From: Vicingaceae bacterium
Lineage (GTDB): Bacteria > Bacteroidota > Bacteroidia > Flavobacteriales_E > Vicingaceae
Reading direction: 5' to 3'
DNA length: 64,000 nucleotides
Assembly: GCA_018402765.1 (NCBI GenBank)
Contig: JAGYIE010000001.1
Coordinates: 930,001 to 994,000 of the forward strand
Shown: in pieces, positions 3,045-61,887 of the stretch
How positions within the stretch are numbered: the stretch's first letter is position 1
How the letters are laid out: every line of letters begins with the position of its first letter
The notes under the pieces: generated by a model
Database searches by the model: none
Told to the model about the DNA's origin: nothing
Seen by the model: only the letters and a program-made list of their open reading frames with translations
Program-made: the position numbers and the translations under genes

Positions 3045-5153
3045 CTAAGAAATCCTACTCCAATTCGTCTTCCCTCTTTGCTGCTCTCGAGCGAAAGCGA
3101 GGATTGGTTGGTGCTCTATCATTTGCAAATCCGGATCTTTATCTAAAATATCTCTAGCAGCATTTCGAGCAACTTCTATCAATTGGCCATCCTTCGCTAG
3201 ATTAGTTAGTTTTAAGTTTACAGGCACTCCACTTTGCTGCGTTCCTGATAAATCGCCAGGGCCACGCAATCTCAAATCAACCTCAGCTATTTGAAACCCA
3301 TCATTGGTTTCCGTCATGGTTTTCATCCTAAGTTTACCATCGTCTGATAATTTATAACCAGTCATCAAATAGCAATATGACTGCTCTGCCCCTCTACCTA
3401 CTCTACCTCTCAACTGATGTAATTGCGACAAACCAAAACGCTCGGCACTTTCTATTACCATTAAAGAGGCATTCGGCACATTAACGCCAACCTCGATAAC
3501 TGTAGTAGCGACCATAATTTGAGTTTCTCCTTTCACAAACCGCTGCATTTCGGCTTCCTTATTTTCATTCGTCATTTGACCATGAACGATGCTGACCTGA
3601 TATTCGAGTCGTGGAAATTTATTCAATACGTCATCAAAACCGGCTTGCAAGTTGGCATAGTCCATCTTTTCCGACTCGTCAATCAATGGATATACGATAT
3701 ACACTTGTCGACCTAATTTAATTTGCTCTCGGAGCACTCCCCACAAACGTTCGCGCTTATTTTCAAACCAATGAATGGTCTCAATAGGCTTTCTACCGGG
3801 AGGCAATTCATCAATTACGGATACATCTAAATCGCCATACAAAGTCATGGCTAAGGTTCTTGGAATCGGCGTAGCTGTCATCACTAAAATATGTGGCACA
3901 CCGTTGGGATTTTTCTTCCATAGTTTAGCTCGCTGTGCAACTCCAAAACGATGCTGCTCATCAATAACACAAAGTCCTAAATTGTGAAACTTTACCTTAT
4001 CTTCTAACAGGGCATGTGTACCTACCAAAATATGCAATTCACCACTCTCCAGTTCTTTATGAATAATCCTTCTATCTTTTATTTTTACAGACCCAGTCAG
4101 TAAAGAAATTTTTACCGGCATGGCTTCTAGCATTTCACTTAACGAGGCATAATGTTGCTGCGCTAATATTTCTGTAGGAGCCATAAGGCAAGCTTGGAAA
4201 CCATTATCCATTGCCATTAGCATAGCCATTAACCCCACCACCGTTTTGCCACTCCCTACGTCACCTTGTAGCAACCGATTCATATGTCGACCGGTACCCA
4301 TATCTTTTCGAATTTCCTTCAACACTCTTTTTTGAGCATTGGTTAATTCAAAAGCTAAATTATTTTGATAAAAATGATTGAAATAGTCGCCAATCGTTGG
4401 AAAAGAAAACCCTCTTGTTTTGTGAGTATTGATCAATTTAAGCTTCAGCAATTCGAGCTGAATAAAAAATAACTCTTCGAATTTCAATCGAAAGATAGCT
4501 CTCTTAAGGATTTCTGTATTCTTAGGAAAATGCAATTGGATCAGTGCTTTCTCTCGCGTCAATAATTTATATTGCTCAATGATATCGGCAGACAAATTCT
4601 CGGGTATTTTTCCAATAAGCTGGGTAAATAAATTCTTCTGAAGCTTTACAATATTTTTTGAACTCAATCCTGAGTTATTCAACTTCTCCGTTGACGTATA
4701 GACCGCCTGCAAGGTAGATTGAATTGTGTTCTTATACTCCACCAAGGTTTCCAATTCCGGATGAACGATACTTAATGAATTATTAAACGAGTTAACCTTT
4801 CCGTATAGCACATATTTAATTCCTACTCCAACGGTGGATCCTAGAAATTTAATTCCCTTAAACCAAACCACTTGAATTCGACCTGTATCATCTTTAAAGG
4901 TGGCTGCTAATCTTTTTTGACGAGCTGCACCAATGGTTTCAATGTGGGTAAACTCACCAACAATCTGTATGTACGGCAAATCAGGATGTAGCTCTGAAAT
5001 GGTGTAGAATTTGGTTTTATCAACATATCGAAACGGATAATGCGTCATTAAATCGCCAAACGTATGAATATTCAACCCCTTCTTTAATAGCTCCCCACGC
5101 TTAGGGCCAACTCCTTTCAGGTATTCAATAGACGTTTGTAACAATTGGGTCAT
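3045..5153 (-). CDS. recG: ATP-dependent DNA helicase RecG
   Basis: Branch-migrating helicase that reverses stalled replication forks and processes recombination intermediates. The 702-residue length matches the family. An N-terminal wedge/OB-fold domain (about residues 60-135) precedes the helicase core. The core has Walker A GDVGSGKT at 297-304, the RecG-type DEQH box at 398-401, TATPIPRT (motif III), and the motif VI segment QLRGRVGRG. A RecG C-terminal tail with LRGPGDLSGTQQSG is present. The ATG start at 5153 gives the usual N-terminus with the helix-hairpin segment LKGVGPKRGELL. It appears to be transcribed alone or with the WD40 gene, 210 bases downstream. Confidence 0.97.
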   Translation of the reverse strand: MTQLLQTSIEYLKGVGPKRGELLKKGLNIHTFGDLMTHYPFRYVDKTKFYTISELHPDLPYIQIVGEFTHIETIGAARQKRLAATFKDDTGRIQVVWFKGIKFLGSTVGVGIKYVLYGKVNSFNNSLSIVHPELETLVEYKNTIQSTLQAVYTSTEKLNNSGLSSKNIVKLQKNLFTQLIGKIPENLSADIIEQYKLLTREKALIQLHFPKNTEILKRAIFRLKFEELFFIQLELLKLKLINTHKTRGFSFPTIGDYFNHFYQNNLAFELTNAQKRVLKEIRKDMGTGRHMNRLLQGDVGSGKTVVGLMAMLMAMDNGFQACLMAPTEILAQQHYASLSEMLEAMPVKISLLTGSVKIKDRRIIHKELESGELHILVGTHALLEDKVKFHNLGLCVIDEQHRFGVAQRAKLWKKNPNGVPHILVMTATPIPRTLAMTLYGDLDVSVIDELPPGRKPIETIHWFENKRERLWGVLREQIKLGRQVYIVYPLIDESEKMDYANLQAGFDDVLNKFPRLEYQVSIVHGQMTNENKEAEMQRFVKGETQIMVATTVIEVGVNVPNASLMVIESAERFGLSQLHQLRGRVGRGAEQSYCYLMTGYKLSDDGKLRMKTMTETNDGFQIAEVDLRLRGPGDLSGTQQSGVPVNLKLTNLAKDGQLIEVARNAARDILDKDPDLQMIEHQPILAFAREQQRGKTNWSRIS

Positions 5154-28951: not shown

Positions 28952-29024
28952 TCGTTAACGTATTAAAGTAGGCTAAATTAAACATTGACATTAAGTTAAG
29001 ATGCAACTTTTTAACAAAAATTAC

Positions 29025-29053
29025 TTGGGGTTAGAAGTTTTTTTTTACATTTG
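29025..29053 (+). promoter_or_regulatory. Promoter abutting the PorG-like gene (leaderless candidate)
   Basis: TTG at 29025-29027 and TACATTTG at 29046-29053 are 18 bases apart, matching the Bacteroidota -33/-7 consensus. The -7 element ends only 4 bases before the chosen ATG at 29058, so the mRNA would start at or near the start codon. Confidence 0.55.
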
Positions 29054-29057
29054 TTTC

Positions 29058-29966
29058 ATGAGGAAATTAATACTTTTCATAGCTATAACTCTATCAACTG
29101 TTTACGCAAAAGCTCAATATAATTTTGATTTTGGAGTTAATTTGGGGGCGTCCAGTTTTTTAGGTGAATTGGGAGGACCAAACAAATCACCTCAAAACAA
29201 CTTTTTGGATATGAATCTTGAGTCTACCCGATATGCCTTTGGGGGCTTTGCGCGGTATCGTTTTCATAAAAGTTTTGCAGCAAAAGCATCTATAAACTAC
29301 TTAAGAGTTTCAGGAGCGGATAGCTTAACCCAAGAGCCAACAAAAAGAGCTAGAAATTTAAGTTTTAGATCAGATATATTAGAAGCATCCGCAACCTTAG
29401 AATATTATTTTATTAAGGTTAACGATATGAATCGTACTGGACGTTATAGAAACGATTTTAGAGCTTATGTTTTTGGAGGTTTCTCAGCTTTTTATTTCAA
29501 ACCTGAAGCATTTTATCAAGGAAATTGGTATGATTTAAGAACCCTGAGAACCGAGGGCCAAGAGGAAGAATACGATCGGATTTCTTTTGCAATCCCCTTT
29601 GGAGCCGGTTTTTATTTTACGATTAAACGAAATATCCGTCTAGGCATGGAAATAGGATACCGAGCCTCTTTCACAGACTATATTGACGATGTAAGTGATG
29701 TGTATGCATCTCCAAAAGATCTGCCATTTGCACAATCCATTCTGTTGGCCAACAGAACACAAGAGAGACGAGCTATAGAAGGTGATGAAAAATTTCCCCA
29801 TTCGGGCTTTTACCAAGAAGGAGCAAAGAGGGGAAATCCGAATTCAAACGATGGGTATATGTTAGGCCAAGTGTCTATTTCATACGCGCTGAGAGGAAGA
29901 AGCAGTTTCTACAAAGCAAGGTACAATAGCGTAATCCACAAACGAAGAAAACGCACGAAGTTCTAA
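29058..29966 (+). CDS. PorG/DUF6089-like outer-membrane beta-barrel protein
   Basis: A 302-residue outer-membrane protein. The ATG at 29058 gives a signal peptide (MRKLILFIAITLSTVYAKAQ); the earlier in-frame ATG at 29001 would place promoter-like DNA inside the gene. The mature part begins NFDFGVNLGASSFLGELGG, typical of the DUF6089/PorG group. It has alternating beta-strand segments (FRAYVFGGFSAFYF, IPFGAGFYFTIKRNIRLGMEIGYR) and ends with SISYALRGR plus a basic tail. PorG is a T9SS component in characterised species, which fits the T9SS substrates in this window. Orthology rather than simple family membership is not certain. Confidence 0.78.
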   Translation: MRKLILFIAITLSTVYAKAQYNFDFGVNLGASSFLGELGGPNKSPQNNFLDMNLESTRYAFGGFARYRFHKSFAAKASINYLRVSGADSLTQEPTKRARNLSFRSDILEASATLEYYFIKVNDMNRTGRYRNDFRAYVFGGFSAFYFKPEAFYQGNWYDLRTLRTEGQEEEYDRISFAIPFGAGFYFTIKRNIRLGMEIGYRASFTDYIDDVSDVYASPKDLPFAQSILLANRTQERRAIEGDEKFPHSGFYQEGAKRGNPNSNDGYMLGQVSISYALRGRSSFYKARYNSVIHKRRKRTKF

Positions 29967-29991
29967 AGCGTAGAATTTCTAACATAAATAG

Positions 29992-30022
29992 AGCCTCTGG
30001 ATGCATTCAGAGGCTTTTTTTT
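29992..30022 (+). terminator. Intrinsic terminator after the PorG-like gene
   Basis: AGCCTCTG at 29992-29999 pairs with CAGAGGCT at 30008-30015 and is followed by a run of Ts (30015-30022). Confidence 0.88.
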
Positions 30023-30035
30023 CAGCGATACAATT

Positions 30036-30545
30036 AAAGCGCTTCTCGATACAATCAAAAAAGTACCCTGAGTGAACAAAGCGCTTCTCGATACAACCAA
30101 AAAAGTACCCTGAATGGACAAAGCGCTTCTCGATACACCGCCTATCAGCGCCACTCGAAGTCCTTTGGATTGATTTCTGATTGCAGATTGGTTCTGTTTT
30201 AAGTACCCTGAGTGGACAAAGCGCTTCTCGATACAATCAAAAAAGTACCCTGAGTGAACAAAGCGCTTCTCGATACAACCAAAAAAGTACCCTGAATGGA
30301 CAAAGCGCTTCTCGATACACCGCCTATCAGCGCCACTCGAAGTCCTTTGGATTGATTTCTGATTGCAGATTGGTTCTGTTTTAAGTACCCTGAGTGAACA
30401 AAGCGCTTCTCGATACACCGCCTATCAGCGCCACTCGAAGTCCTTTGGATTGATTTCTGATTGCAGATTGGTTCTGTTTTAAGTACCCTGAGTGAACAAA
30501 GCGCTTCTCGATACAACCAAAAAAGTACCCTGAGTGAACAAAGCG
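30036..30545. repeat. Modular tandem repeat array (42-bp and 98-bp units)
   Basis: This gene-free stretch is built of two module types that share their first about 36 bases (AAGTACCCTGAGTGAACAAA then GCGCTTCTCGATACA). A is 42 bp and ends CAAYCAAAA. B is 98 bp and adds a GCCTATCAGCGCCACTCGAA to TTGGTTCTGTTTT segment. Order: partial A 30036-30060, A 30061-30102, B 30103-30200, A 30201-30242, A 30243-30284, B 30285-30382, B 30383-30480, A 30481-30522, partial A from 30523. The block A-A-B is itself duplicated with a 182-bp period (shared variants CAATC, then CAACC, then GAATGG). Minus-strand open frames through the array merely reflect its repeats and are not called as genes. Confidence 0.93.
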
Positions 30546-30573
30546 AAGCTTTGTTTTTATCAAAGGGCACTTT
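30519..30573 (-). terminator. Terminator of the left polysaccharide transcription unit
   Basis: On the minus strand, AAAGTGCCCT (30573-30564) can pair with AGGGTACTTT (30531-30522), one G-U included, and is followed by a T run to 30519. Inside, AACAAAGC and GCTTTGTT (30537-30555 region) form a second hairpin with a 3-base loop. The distal arm lies in the last repeat copy of the array. Confidence 0.6.
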
Positions 30574-30596
30574 TTAAATCATACATCGGCTCAAAT

Positions 30597-31346
30597 CTAT
30601 CGTTTCACATATTGTATAACTTTTCTCAATGGCTTAAATAACAACGTATAGGACTTAGGAATCAATCCATTCAATTCCCATGCTTTTCGATCTTCTCTAT
30701 TGGCTCTTAACCGATTGGATAGGCTAGAATTACTCATCCCACCAACGCGCATACTCACAATTACTCGAGGCAAATACGATAGCTCAGCACGATACTTTTG
30801 AACCATTCGTAACATCAATTCATAATCCGCAGCAGAAACCAAGTCTAAACTGTATCCACCATACTTCTCATACCAATCCTTTTTAATAAAAAAAGTGGGA
30901 TGTGGAGGCATCCAACCCAAAATAAACGAATTCGTTTTAAAAATTCCAGACTTCCAATACCGAACAATTTTGTTGGTATCCTCTTGGTCGACGTAGTTTA
31001 AATCAGCATATAATGCATCAGACTTTTCATCTGTCATCTTCCTAACTACTTCTTCTAACACGTATTCATCAGCATACATATCATCAGAATTAAGGACACC
31101 AATAAGATCCCCTGTGGCCAAATTAATTCCCTTATTAATAGCATCATACATACCCTGATCCTTTTCTGAAACTACTTTAGCAATTTTATTCCCAAACGAA
31201 TGGATGATTTCAAGGGTGCCATCCATTGATTGGCCATCGATTAAAATATACTCTACATTTAAATAGGATTGATTTATGACTGATTTGATGCAGTCTTTTA
31301 TGGTCTTTTGGCTATTGTAGCAAACGGTGATGATAGAGATTTTCAT
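30597..31346 (-). CDS. Glycosyltransferase family 2
   Basis: A 249-residue GT-A fold transferase for surface polysaccharide synthesis. The N-terminus MKISIITVCYNSQKT, the DGQSMDGT segment and the DxD-type LNSDDMYADE (metal/nucleotide-sugar binding) are clear. The middle region with GWMPPHPTFF and the SAADYELMLRM segment resembles WcaA/WcaE-like enzymes. It is the last gene of the left unit, overlapping the acetyltransferase gene by 4 bases (ATGA). Donor and acceptor sugars cannot be read from sequence. Confidence 0.9.
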   Translation of the reverse strand: MKISIITVCYNSQKTIKDCIKSVINQSYLNVEYILIDGQSMDGTLEIIHSFGNKIAKVVSEKDQGMYDAINKGINLATGDLIGVLNSDDMYADEYVLEEVVRKMTDEKSDALYADLNYVDQEDTNKIVRYWKSGIFKTNSFILGWMPPHPTFFIKKDWYEKYGGYSLDLVSAADYELMLRMVQKYRAELSYLPRVIVSMRVGGMSNSSLSNRLRANREDRKAWELNGLIPKSYTLLFKPLRKVIQYVKR

Positions 31347-58669: not shown

Positions 58670-59488
58670 TTAAATCAAATCAGCCATTACACGTTCCACT
58701 TTTTTAAAATACCATAAGCTTGTTAAAAATAACAGTAACATTACACCTATGGAAAAAAAGATCAATTGACCAGGCGCTTCCCCCCCAATAATGGACCACC
58801 TTACTCCTTCAATAACACCCACCATAGGGTTTAAGGCATACAACCATTGATACTTCTCTGGAACCATATTCGCTGCATAGGCCACAGGGGAGGCATACAT
58901 CCCAATCTGCACCATAAAAGGCAATAAATGCGTAAAATCTCGAAAGCGAACAGTCAAAGCACTCACCCAAATACCTACCCCTAAGCCACCAATGATCAGC
59001 AGCAAAATAAACAAGGGCAAATAAAGAATATTGGCTGAAGGAACAAACTGATAATAAACCCCAATAACAATTAAGATGACTAAGCTAATCATAAAATCAA
59101 TCAACCCCACTATGGCTTTAGAAATAGGAATAACCAAGCGTGGAAAGTAAATCTTTTTCACCATGGCTTGTGCCCCTACGATGGAGTTTCCTGCTTGACT
59201 AATCAAAAAAGCAAAATAAGTCCATGCCAGCATCCCCGATTGCGCAAATAGGGGATAAGGAGTAGAGCCGGTATCTACCTTGGCTACTCGGCTAAAAATA
59301 AGGGTGAAAATTAACAATGTAGCCAATGGCTGTATAAATGCCCAAACAAAACCCAAAAAAGTTTGTGCGTAACGCACCTTGTAATCCCTCCAGGCCAAAA
59401 TGGCAATTAAATCTTTATAATTCCATAAATCGGTAACAATGGTAGAGAATTTGGTCGGTGAATTGGAAGAGATTTTTAGCTCCATCAT
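58670..59488 (-). CDS. wzm: Polysaccharide ABC exporter permease
   Basis: A 272-residue inner-membrane protein of the ABC-2 type (Wzm/RfbA). Six hydrophobic helices are visible (FVWAFIQPLATLLIFTLIF, MLAWTYFAFLISQAGNS, FMISLVILIVIGVYYQF, YLPLFILLLIIGGLGVGIW). The conserved YPLFAQSGML and RFRDFTHLLPFMVQIGMYASPVAY segments fit the family. The ATG at 59488 forms an ATGA overlap with the wzc stop; an earlier ATG at 59515 would overlap wzc by 31 bases and is less likely. Confidence 0.92.
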   Translation of the reverse strand: MMELKISSNSPTKFSTIVTDLWNYKDLIAILAWRDYKVRYAQTFLGFVWAFIQPLATLLIFTLIFSRVAKVDTGSTPYPLFAQSGMLAWTYFAFLISQAGNSIVGAQAMVKKIYFPRLVIPISKAIVGLIDFMISLVILIVIGVYYQFVPSANILYLPLFILLLIIGGLGVGIWVSALTVRFRDFTHLLPFMVQIGMYASPVAYAANMVPEKYQWLYALNPMVGVIEGVRWSIIGGEAPGQLIFFSIGVMLLLFLTSLWYFKKVERVMADLI

Positions 59489-61887
59489 GGTTGTTTGCGC
59501 TTCAAAGGATTCCACATTTTCTTTTTCATTTTGTTGCTGCTATCTTCCGCATAATACCCATAGCCGTAGCCATAACCGTATCCATAGCCATACCCGTAGC
59601 CGTACCCATAGCCGTACCCATAACCATACGCCAATGGGCCAGAATTTTCTTTCACCGCATTCATCACTATACCAATCTTTTTGATTTTACCAGTTTGAAA
59701 GAGGTTATCTATATTTTCCAGATAGGCTTTTTTGGTATAGTTGTGGCGGACGATATACAAAGAAGCATCCACATATCGATTGATGATGAGTGCATCGGTA
59801 ACCAGCCCTACAGGAGGGGTATCGATCACCACCACCTCATAGTCTTGCTTTAGTAACTCAACTAGCTCTTGCATGCGCTCACTTTCAATTAACTCAGCCG
59901 GGTTGGGTGGTATAGGCCCAGAAGAAATTAAGTCCAAATTTTCAATTCGGGTTTGCTGAATGCTTTGAGTTAAATCCGCTTTGCTAATTAAATAAGAGCT
60001 TAAGCCAATTTCATTGCTCAAACCAAAATCTTTGAAAATCTTTGGTTTCCGTAAATCTGCACCCACCAAAATGGTCTTTTTACCAGAAGCAGCATAGATG
60101 GCAGCCAAATTAATGGAGGTAAAGGTTTTTCCTTCTCCTGATATTGAAGAAGTTACCATAACCACATGGCGTTCTTTTCCTTCCACCATATAATTGATGT
60201 TGGTTCGTATACTCCTGAAGGATTCAGAAACCATGGACTTTAAATTGTTGCTCACAATGATGTTGTTCTCCAATCCCTTTTTCAGCATAATGGATCCCAG
60301 CAATGGAATCTTTGTGATGTACTCCAAATCTGATCGGTCAACGATTTTATTGTTTAAAAAATACAACAACAAAATAACGGCCAACGGAAGAATAAGCCCG
60401 ACTACGACATTGGTAGCATAAACAGAGCCTGACTGTGGCCCTACAAAACGCAAACGGTATTTAGAAGCTTCTTCCAATACAGAGGCCTTCGAAATACTCG
60501 AAGCCTGAGCAATACTCGCCTCAGAGCGTTTATTGAGTAAATAAATGTACAAATCATTTAGCAAGTCATAGCGCCTTTGCAAATCGTATCCCTTTTGGCC
60601 ATAAGAAGAAGCTTCCTTGCTTCTAATTTTCATTCTTTCCAATTGCTCAGCTGCTGCTCTTTTTGCCAAACTAACTTCTCTTCTAGCAAGGTAAACCCGA
60701 TTCATTAAGGTTTTTCTTAATAAAAGCAATTCAGTGTCTGACCCTATTACGTAGCTATTTTTAAGCGTTGCCGTATTCCCCTTTTTCATCTTTACCAAAA
60801 CAGCATTTCTCATTTCCTTTACTAAATCATGTATATAGGGGTCTGTAATGTTAAAAAACTGAGGTGAAGGAATTCCATAATCCAAAGAGTCTGATTCTAG
60901 AAACCCTTCAAGCAGGTCATAATACGATTCCTGCAATTCGATAGTTGAAATATTTTTTTCAATTCTATAGACTTCTTCATACTTTATCCCTTCATCAATT
61001 GGTACATTCTTTTGAATTGCCATATTTTGAAATTTGACTATCTTCAGCTCTAACTCCTTGAGGCTATCCGTAACCTCTTCCAGCTGATCATCTACAAAGG
61101 CAATCGTATTGCGTGCAATGGCATTGTTGATATCCAATCCCCGATCAATGTAAACCCGCATCAATTGATTGAGAAAGTCCATTTCCTTTGCAGGAGTTTC
61201 TCCAGAAGAGGAAAACAATAAAATGGTGGCTTCTTTATTCTCTAGTGTAAGGCGCAACTTTGACTTTAGCCCATTGGCCACATCTGAAGGGTTGATAATA
61301 CTGATTCTGTAGATTTCTGTTTCATCTGGCTTGAATTTCTTCAACAATACATCTACCTCAAGTTGCTGACCCTGAAAATGCAAGCTATCTAAGGGCACAA
61401 AAGGGAGGTTTTCTAAGCCATCCTTACTTCTGGCAACACGCGCTTCTAACGCTTTGGTAATTTCAATAAAAAAGGTACCCTCAAAAACTTCGTAATTCTT
61501 CAGCGTAATCTCCGAAACCGGATACATTTCGGTGGTGCGAATATTGCCCACTTTGTAGTAAAATACCTTCCAATTAAGCTCATCCACTACTTCTTGCATT
61601 AACGGTAAGGACTTGATGATCCCAAATTCATTCATCATATTACTTGAAGAAGAAACCAAATCTGTTCCCTTAATAAAATAATCTTGCCCCCAGGAGCTGT
61701 ATTCATCTTTTACCAACAAGCGAGAAGAAACCGAATAGGTTGGTGGATCGTAGCGCATTTTATAAAAAGACAACGCCACGCTTAAAATCAACCCGATTAC
61801 AACTAAGTACCAGTATCGAATAACGTACATCAACAATACTTGAGGATCTATTTTAATCGTCGATCCATCAGATTTAGCAACTGCCAT
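59485..61887 (-). CDS. wzc: GumC/Wzc-type polysaccharide co-polymerase with bacterial tyrosine kinase domain and Gly-Tyr tail
   Basis: An 800-residue inner-membrane protein controlling chain length and export. N-terminal YVIRYWYLVVIGLILSVALSF is the first membrane helix. A long helical periplasmic region follows, and a second helix lies at VGLILPLAVILLLYFLNN. The cytoplasmic kinase has Walker A SGEGKTFTS at 583-591, Walker A' ILVGADLRKPK and Walker B VVVIDTPPVGL. The C-terminal tail (754-779) is fourteen tyrosines alternating with twelve glycines, presumed autophosphorylation sites. A Wza-like outer-membrane exporter gene is not seen nearby. It diverges from the exosortase gene across 82 bases. 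Confidence 0.95.
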   Translation of the reverse strand: MAVAKSDGSTIKIDPQVLLMYVIRYWYLVVIGLILSVALSFYKMRYDPPTYSVSSRLLVKDEYSSWGQDYFIKGTDLVSSSSNMMNEFGIIKSLPLMQEVVDELNWKVFYYKVGNIRTTEMYPVSEITLKNYEVFEGTFFIEITKALEARVARSKDGLENLPFVPLDSLHFQGQQLEVDVLLKKFKPDETEIYRISIINPSDVANGLKSKLRLTLENKEATILLFSSSGETPAKEMDFLNQLMRVYIDRGLDINNAIARNTIAFVDDQLEEVTDSLKELELKIVKFQNMAIQKNVPIDEGIKYEEVYRIEKNISTIELQESYYDLLEGFLESDSLDYGIPSPQFFNITDPYIHDLVKEMRNAVLVKMKKGNTATLKNSYVIGSDTELLLLRKTLMNRVYLARREVSLAKRAAAEQLERMKIRSKEASSYGQKGYDLQRRYDLLNDLYIYLLNKRSEASIAQASSISKASVLEEASKYRLRFVGPQSGSVYATNVVVGLILPLAVILLLYFLNNKIVDRSDLEYITKIPLLGSIMLKKGLENNIIVSNNLKSMVSESFRSIRTNINYMVEGKERHVVMVTSSISGEGKTFTSINLAAIYAASGKKTILVGADLRKPKIFKDFGLSNEIGLSSYLISKADLTQSIQQTRIENLDLISSGPIPPNPAELIESERMQELVELLKQDYEVVVIDTPPVGLVTDALIINRYVDASLYIVRHNYTKKAYLENIDNLFQTGKIKKIGIVMNAVKENSGPLAYGYGYGYGYGYGYGYGYGYGYGYGYYAEDSSNKMKKKMWNPLKRKQP

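Follow-up and report, generated by a model that had tools for sequence, protein, structure and literature searches.

A tandem array behind a polysaccharide operon in a Vicingaceae genome, read as a local expansion of a dispersed REP-like palindromic element

Introduction

The REPs and BIMEs of enterobacteria, the REPINs and the GTAG REPs are dispersed palindromic sequences that lie outside genes and form clusters, either head to tail or as inverted pairs. The GTAG REPs are mobilised by a tyrosine transposase, RAYT (TnpA-REP). Members of a further superfamily, the CGTC REPs, bear an unpaired CGTC (or TGTC, CCTC) tag at one end and a short unpaired tail with the consensus CCA. CGTC REPs have been found in five phyla, Bacteroidetes included, with stems of 8-9 bp and loops of 4-5, and the survey that describes them reports no association with transposase genes and leaves the question of an enzyme to future work (Di Nocera, De Gregorio and Rocco 2013, PMC3733652).

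Here we analysed a 64,000-nucleotide stretch of DNA from a Vicingaceae bacterium (the window), in which a 510-base tandem array occupies much of the intergenic region 29967-30596, where two convergent genes meet. We conclude that this array is very probably a local tandem expansion of a dispersed REP-like palindromic element behind a polysaccharide operon, the last copy of which probably ends or protects the transcript.

Results

Anatomy of the array

Tandem Repeats Finder gave periods of 42, 98 and 182 for the array (Table 1). A sequence-only reading of this DNA had proposed two modules in the order A'-A-B-A-A-B-B-A-A', and the unit starts and lengths (42-98-42-42-98-98-42, before a terminal unit that begins at 30523) agree with it. 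Some details had to be corrected. The head common to A and B, given as 36 bases, is indeed shared but comprises 35, with variable positions 12 and 15. The block duplication was recovered as well, although the variant bases said to come with it reduce to a single difference, at 30215. A T run, said to follow the 3' arm AGGGTACTT in each A module on the minus strand, is present in five of the eight arms (TTTTTT), whereas TTAAAA stands behind the arm in the units at 30201, 30383 and 30481, each of which succeeds a B module. Growth by serial duplication in at least two steps is borne out by this anatomy.

Table 1. Features of the array region (window coordinates) and places of the same family elsewhere in the genome (contig:position)
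Feature	Position	Strand	Evidence
Left neighbour, DUF6089 / outer-membrane beta-barrel protein, convergent with the operon	29001-29966	+	Pfam PF19573, 3.9e-15
Intrinsic terminator belonging to the left gene, of ordinary type and separate from the array	29990-30022	+	Terminator scan
182-bp higher-order repeat, copy 1	30036-30217	+	Copy 2 at 30218-30399, one difference
A' partial unit	30036-30060	+	Sequence
A unit, half element	30061-30102	+	Sequence
B unit, complete tagged element, tags 30130-30158	30103-30200	+	Sequence and tag pattern
A unit	30201-30242	+	Sequence
A unit	30243-30284	+	Sequence
B unit, tags 30312-30340	30285-30382	+	Sequence and tag pattern
B unit, tags 30410-30438	30383-30480	+	Sequence and tag pattern
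A unit	30481-30522	+	Sequence
Terminal unit with outside arm, two-part hairpin, then TTTTTT	30521-30574	-	Fold
Last gene of the minus-strand polysaccharide operon, glycosyltransferase family 2	30597-31346	-	PF00535, 9.1e-30
Family places outside the array	C1:69983, C1:997344 (contig end), C4:14211 (contig end), C9:226051, C9:692257, C9:739515, C10:284950, C11:85209		Genome search

Neither of the two ORFs within the array (151 and 123 aa) matches a Pfam family, and their reading follows the repeat. The single Rfam match over the array region, a snoRNA far below the gathering score, was taken as chance. Among the contigs searched, the window's own genome excluded, the closest relatives of the left neighbour's DUF6089 protein came from Flavobacteriales MAGs, with an identity of about 46%. 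Elsewhere in the window, a 12-bp tandem repeat (TACCCATAGCCG) lies at 59555-59628, near the 3' end of a minus-strand ORF (59485-61887).

The modules belong to a dispersed family

In its exact form, the head AAAGCGCTTCTCGATACA occurs eight times in the genome, always within the array. Relatives with two or three mismatches, together with BLAST matches to one of them, placed family sequence at eight other sites (Table 1); the mismatch search returned 17 matches, against 2 for the reversed pattern. Some of these dispersed copies are worn. The dispersed element is a palindrome with the tags TCGATACA and CACTCGA; module B, which holds both tags exactly, represents it whole, and module A represents half of it. 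According to the sequence-only reading, a lack of transcription ends at the array together with large numbers of the module at unrelated intergenic sites would make it a generic dispersed repeat. We found that it is dispersed at such sites, but in a small number (the eight other places, two of which are contig ends).

At C11:85209 and C9:739515 the elements form long three-level hairpins (z -5.3 and -5.0 as DNA), in which, by eye, the stem of one element is built from the outer arms of another in opposite orientation. Both neighbouring genes were visible at seven of the genome's own places, and were convergent at four, co-directional at two and divergent at one.

Two contig ends (G000:C1:997344-997455 and G000:C4:14211-14292) lie inside family repeats with matching arms. 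Since both share this arrangement of arms and the C4 end shows two 43-bp units, the assembly was probably interrupted here by another array of the genome. As the assembly breaks twice inside family repeats, the copy number could be off.

The same site in sister genomes

Both other genomes of the genus (G001 and G002) carry the convergent gene pair found at the array site. A family element is present at this site in all three genomes, and an array in one of them, that of the window. In G002, the outer part of the element behind the conserved plus-strand terminator aligns with module B (score 51.6, against a mean of 25.0 and a maximum of 39.9 in 200 shuffles) and another element lies inside it; alignment of the array's terminal unit with G002 (39.6) did not go beyond chance (shuffled maximum 47.1). 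G001 has a single element with, by eye, a 10-bp outer stem. BLAST with another element as the query gave three matches in G002 and nothing in G001, so that homology of the G001 element rests on its tags and on the stem seen by eye. The terminator of the left gene has counterparts at the same place in both sisters (43.1 for the G002 alignment, shuffled maximum 37.0).

Two further places were compared by eye, C9:226051 and C9:692257, and at both of them the two sisters keep the neighbouring genes without the element. These empty sites indicate that the gain or loss of elements takes place at the species level.

Tagged elements in related genomes

We searched 395 genomes of the phylum for the pattern TCGATACA, 3-33 bases, CACTCGA. 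It matched in 61 of them, with up to 31 strict matches in relatives. Three or more matches were reached by 15 of the 98 genomes of the same class (the window's own included), against one of the 297 others, and the reversed pattern never gave more than 2.

The sequence between the tags is free but paired. In 79 of 104 distinct interiors, five or more consecutive pairs form a hairpin that begins right at the tag boundary; random re-pairing of the arms gave 12.8 such interiors on average and 22 at most. The paired interiors use 20 different five-base stems. These interiors come from 109 of the rows listed (the first places per genome), 30 rows from genomes with one or two hits being omitted, and related sequences inflate the counts. 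Two complete genomes considered separately behaved alike: at least four pairs were formed in 17 of 25 interiors of G049 (re-paired mean 3.95, maximum 9) and in 13 of 15 of G246 (mean 2.72, maximum 8), and at most 1 was paired when the partner was slid by 1-3 bases. In the few-hit genomes (31 rows, namely the 30 omitted ones and one also included in the main test), only 4 of 20 usable interiors paired at the boundary (mean 0.30, maximum 3), so that many tag matches in these genomes are probably due to chance.

Outside the inner tag, the relatives' elements carry a C/TGTC tag at a fixed distance. Among 58 elements, positions -7 to -4 are C or T in 58, G in 55, T in 58 and C in 57, and the complete YGTC tag precedes the stem in at least 54. 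Stem column -2 holds G and C 39 and 13 times and column +4 holds C and G 39 and 13 times, which are column totals and not counts of pairs. When both strands were folded as RNA, each with a uniform outer arm attached, the TCGAGTG strand gave the better fold in all 39 distinct elements from G049 and G246, an advantage that follows from the tags.

Inverted pairs and tandem clusters are common among these elements. Tandem copies with periods of about 78, 92 and 110 bp were seen at L205 and L207 (both in G309) and at G049:C1:2448700-2448954. With crude ORF calling, 30 loci in relatives were classified as co-directional (17), convergent (6), divergent (2), overlapping a predicted ORF (4) or unclassified (1). 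The TCGAGTG strand is in the transcript at 11 of the 17 co-directional loci, by eye; this is no clear bias, and the idea of an orientation preference relative to transcription was dropped.

Comparison with REP families

The family has the general traits of REPs and BIMEs. It is dispersed, folds into imperfect palindromes, is extragenic, mostly not between divergent genes, and shares with the enterobacterial REPs and BIMEs, the REPINs and the GTAG REPs the arrangement in clusters, head to tail or as inverted pairs. The high copy number of REPs (tens to thousands) was not found, the window's genome having nine places. From the GTAG REPs with their RAYT it differs by the lack of a GTAG tag, the lack of an adjoining RAYT and this low copy number.

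The CGTC REPs come closer. They too are short dispersed palindromes behind genes, occur as inverted pairs and show no association with RAYT, and the C/TGTC tag of the relatives' elements stands at a fixed place before the stem. However, the stem is interrupted here and the interior varies from 3 to 33 bases, an additional hairpin, free in sequence, lies within a second pair of tags, and elements are nested. In the window's genome the YGTC tag is worn, reading GGTCA at four places and being absent from the array units. By these features the array works like a REP cluster, while strict membership among the CGTC REPs fails on stem and loop, and the tag does not settle it.

A GIY-YIG nuclease as candidate mobiliser

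A small ORF between two pairs of elements in one relative (L215) turned out to encode a GIY-YIG protein (PF01541). That small single-domain GIY-YIG nucleases mobilise both the tagged elements and the CGTC REPs is an explanation to which we give about an even chance; the association is correlative and the loci were partly picked by hand. Across 274 loci searched, GIY-YIG was found at four places, each in a locus chosen because of its tagged elements, whereas the Y1, DUF6089 and own-genome loci had none. Against this explanation, no GIY-YIG gene lies within 1.5 kb of the family places in the window's genome, nor in the window.

We then considered 40 stretches of 20 kb centred on elements from seven genomes. 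They contained six GIY-YIG matches, whose distances to the closest strict element are 0, 8, 87, 419, 1514 and 5707 bases. Of the DNA in these stretches, 5.8% lies within 500 bases of such an element. Two of the genes were known beforehand (L298 and L282), and L298 had prompted the idea; without it, three of five are within 500 bases. Complete or slightly worn elements lie on both sides of the gene at L298, L282, L309, L313 and L083, another palindromic family does so at L306, and one side is cut off at L244. When the 300 bases on each side were compared, an exact match of at least 18 bases was shared by the two flanks in five of the six GIY-YIG genes, against 8 of 616 other genes in the same stretches.

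GIY-YIG loci on named plasmids showed a similar arrangement outside Bacteroidota as well. At least 15 bases are shared between the two flanks in 11 of 20 loci, which are examples and not a rate since the loci were chosen: they were taken among 60 matches listed of 70 records, as best matches plus environmental genera, passing over most Vibrio, Enterobacteriaceae and Listeria rows, and a single Sphingobium locus accounts for three of the 11. The 11 (L315, L316, L319, L322-L324 and L327-L331) are from Methylobacterium aquaticum, M. bullatum, Planktothrix agardhii, three Sphingobium, Sinorhizobium meliloti pSymB, Sinorhizobium K101, Rhizobium CIAT894, Neorhizobium and Shinella. What the two flanks have in common are palindromes of the CGTC type, for example CGTCATCCTCGGGCTTGACCCGAGGATCCA, and several of these loci have canonical CGTC-type REPs.

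The nine other plasmid loci, which speak against the explanation, share no such flank. They come from Sphingomonas parapaucimobilis (whose only palindrome lies upstream), S. paeninsulae, Legionella lytica, Radiobacillus, Photobacterium, Spirosoma (where both flanks show palindromes by eye and the longest match is 11), Acidiphilium, Cupriavidus and Salinivibrio. For the other genes in 12 of the plasmid loci, where the GIY-YIG gene was taken as bases 3991-4285 of each locus, 6 of 84 reach 15 bases; a single Photobacterium locus accounts for four, and the remaining two adjoin the GIY-YIG gene of Rhizobium. In the open-licence literature we found no report on the tagged elements or on GIY-YIG genes beside REPs.

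The terminal hairpin and termination behind the operon

The array had been described as fused to the terminator of the polysaccharide unit through pairing of its final copy with AAAGTGCCCT, outside the array. This pairing is real: the minus-strand fold of 30521-30574 reaches -21.1 kcal/mol (z -4.2), with 1 of 200 shuffles equally good, and the hairpin, terminator-like as RNA, is followed by T6. The terminal hairpin and its T run probably end or protect the RNA of the operon.

A stronger version, that the array multiplies termination signals, was not supported. If the array were a functional serial terminator or RNA stabiliser, each unit would add termination and be retained for it. The position of the array, 23 bases behind the last stop codon of the operon, the good terminal hairpin and the T runs kept in five arms suit such a role. 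We nevertheless consider it unlikely, because there is a single 5' arm (AAAGTGCCCT), because the T run is missing in the units after B, because no U run follows the B hairpins, and because the sister genomes have a single element at the same site. A consensus scan for terminators on both strands also found no such site within the array, which is weak evidence since its loop limit of 3-8 misses the terminal hairpin as well.

The terminal unit thus resembles an intrinsic terminator in its hairpin and T run, a combination that we found in this unit alone. The array departs from intrinsic terminators in its other units, which lack the combination, in the length of the two-part hairpin, and in that the element is also found behind genes that have a terminator of their own. 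The best-supported reading is that the remainder of the array would be amplification without a function of its own.

RAYT and other explanations

We also considered mobilisation of the TCGAGTG..TGTATCGA hairpins by RAYT, as in GTAG REPs. The window's genome does have one Y1_Tnp gene, whose motifs NHIH and YIHQNP are those tabulated for Bacteroidetes subclass 2.6 in PMC6006769. However, that gene is flanked by a different repeat, a complete tagged element is present within 1.5 kb at none of 31 Y1_Tnp loci, and two of the genomes richest in elements, G049 (26) and G104 (15), have no Y1_Tnp match. On these grounds RAYT was rejected as the mobiliser, an involvement in these elements being quite improbable. 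The locus of this only Y1_Tnp (RAYT-like) gene (L001, G000:C9:573724-576939) bears the repeat ..GTAGCAACTGATCACGCGATACAATCGCGCGGGAA.. on both sides.

A CRISPR-like array or a chance satellite, to which direct repeats regularly spaced in an intergenic region might point, can practically be dismissed, given that the units have identical or near-identical contents with no unique spacers and that the family is dispersed at further sites in the genome.

Discussion

The local tandem expansion that we favour would have started from one copy of the element, with its tag TCGATACA, hairpin, tag CACTCGA and pairing outer arms, sitting just behind the stop codon of the operon. The left part of this copy would then have been amplified in tandem, with the 42- and 98-bp units arising first and the 182-bp block afterwards, possibly by slippage or unequal recombination. 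Mobility of the elements would come from an enzyme that works on single-stranded DNA in its folded form. Against this reading as a whole stand the copy number, which is low for a REP, the chance-level alignment of the terminal unit with G002, the lack of a BLAST match in G001, and the folding of the array as a whole (z -1.9), of the B core (z -1.6) and of a single B unit, which does not surpass its shuffles (z -0.6).

For this enzyme, we propose tentatively, and at somewhat less than an even chance, that CGTC-type REPs and the tagged flavobacterial-type elements, the array included, have a dedicated small single-domain GIY-YIG nuclease, whose gene lies between two copies of its own repeat. The gene in this position would be the counterpart of RAYT in its REPtron. 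Cleavage by such an enzyme at the YGTC or TCGA feet of the folded strand might allow elements to spread, nest and amplify, and arrays of the type seen in the window may be products of this activity or of slippage on its products. The link remains a correlation and the enzyme a candidate.

Taken alone, the array is a modest finding, a REP-like cluster behind an operon. The family is of more interest, with its fixed tags around a free but paired hairpin, its nested insertions and its presence or absence between sister species. The GIY-YIG link offers a concrete enzyme candidate for the CGTC REPs, which the 2013 survey reported to lack a transposase (PMC3733652). If it is true, a widespread class of bacterial intergenic repeats would gain a testable mechanism.
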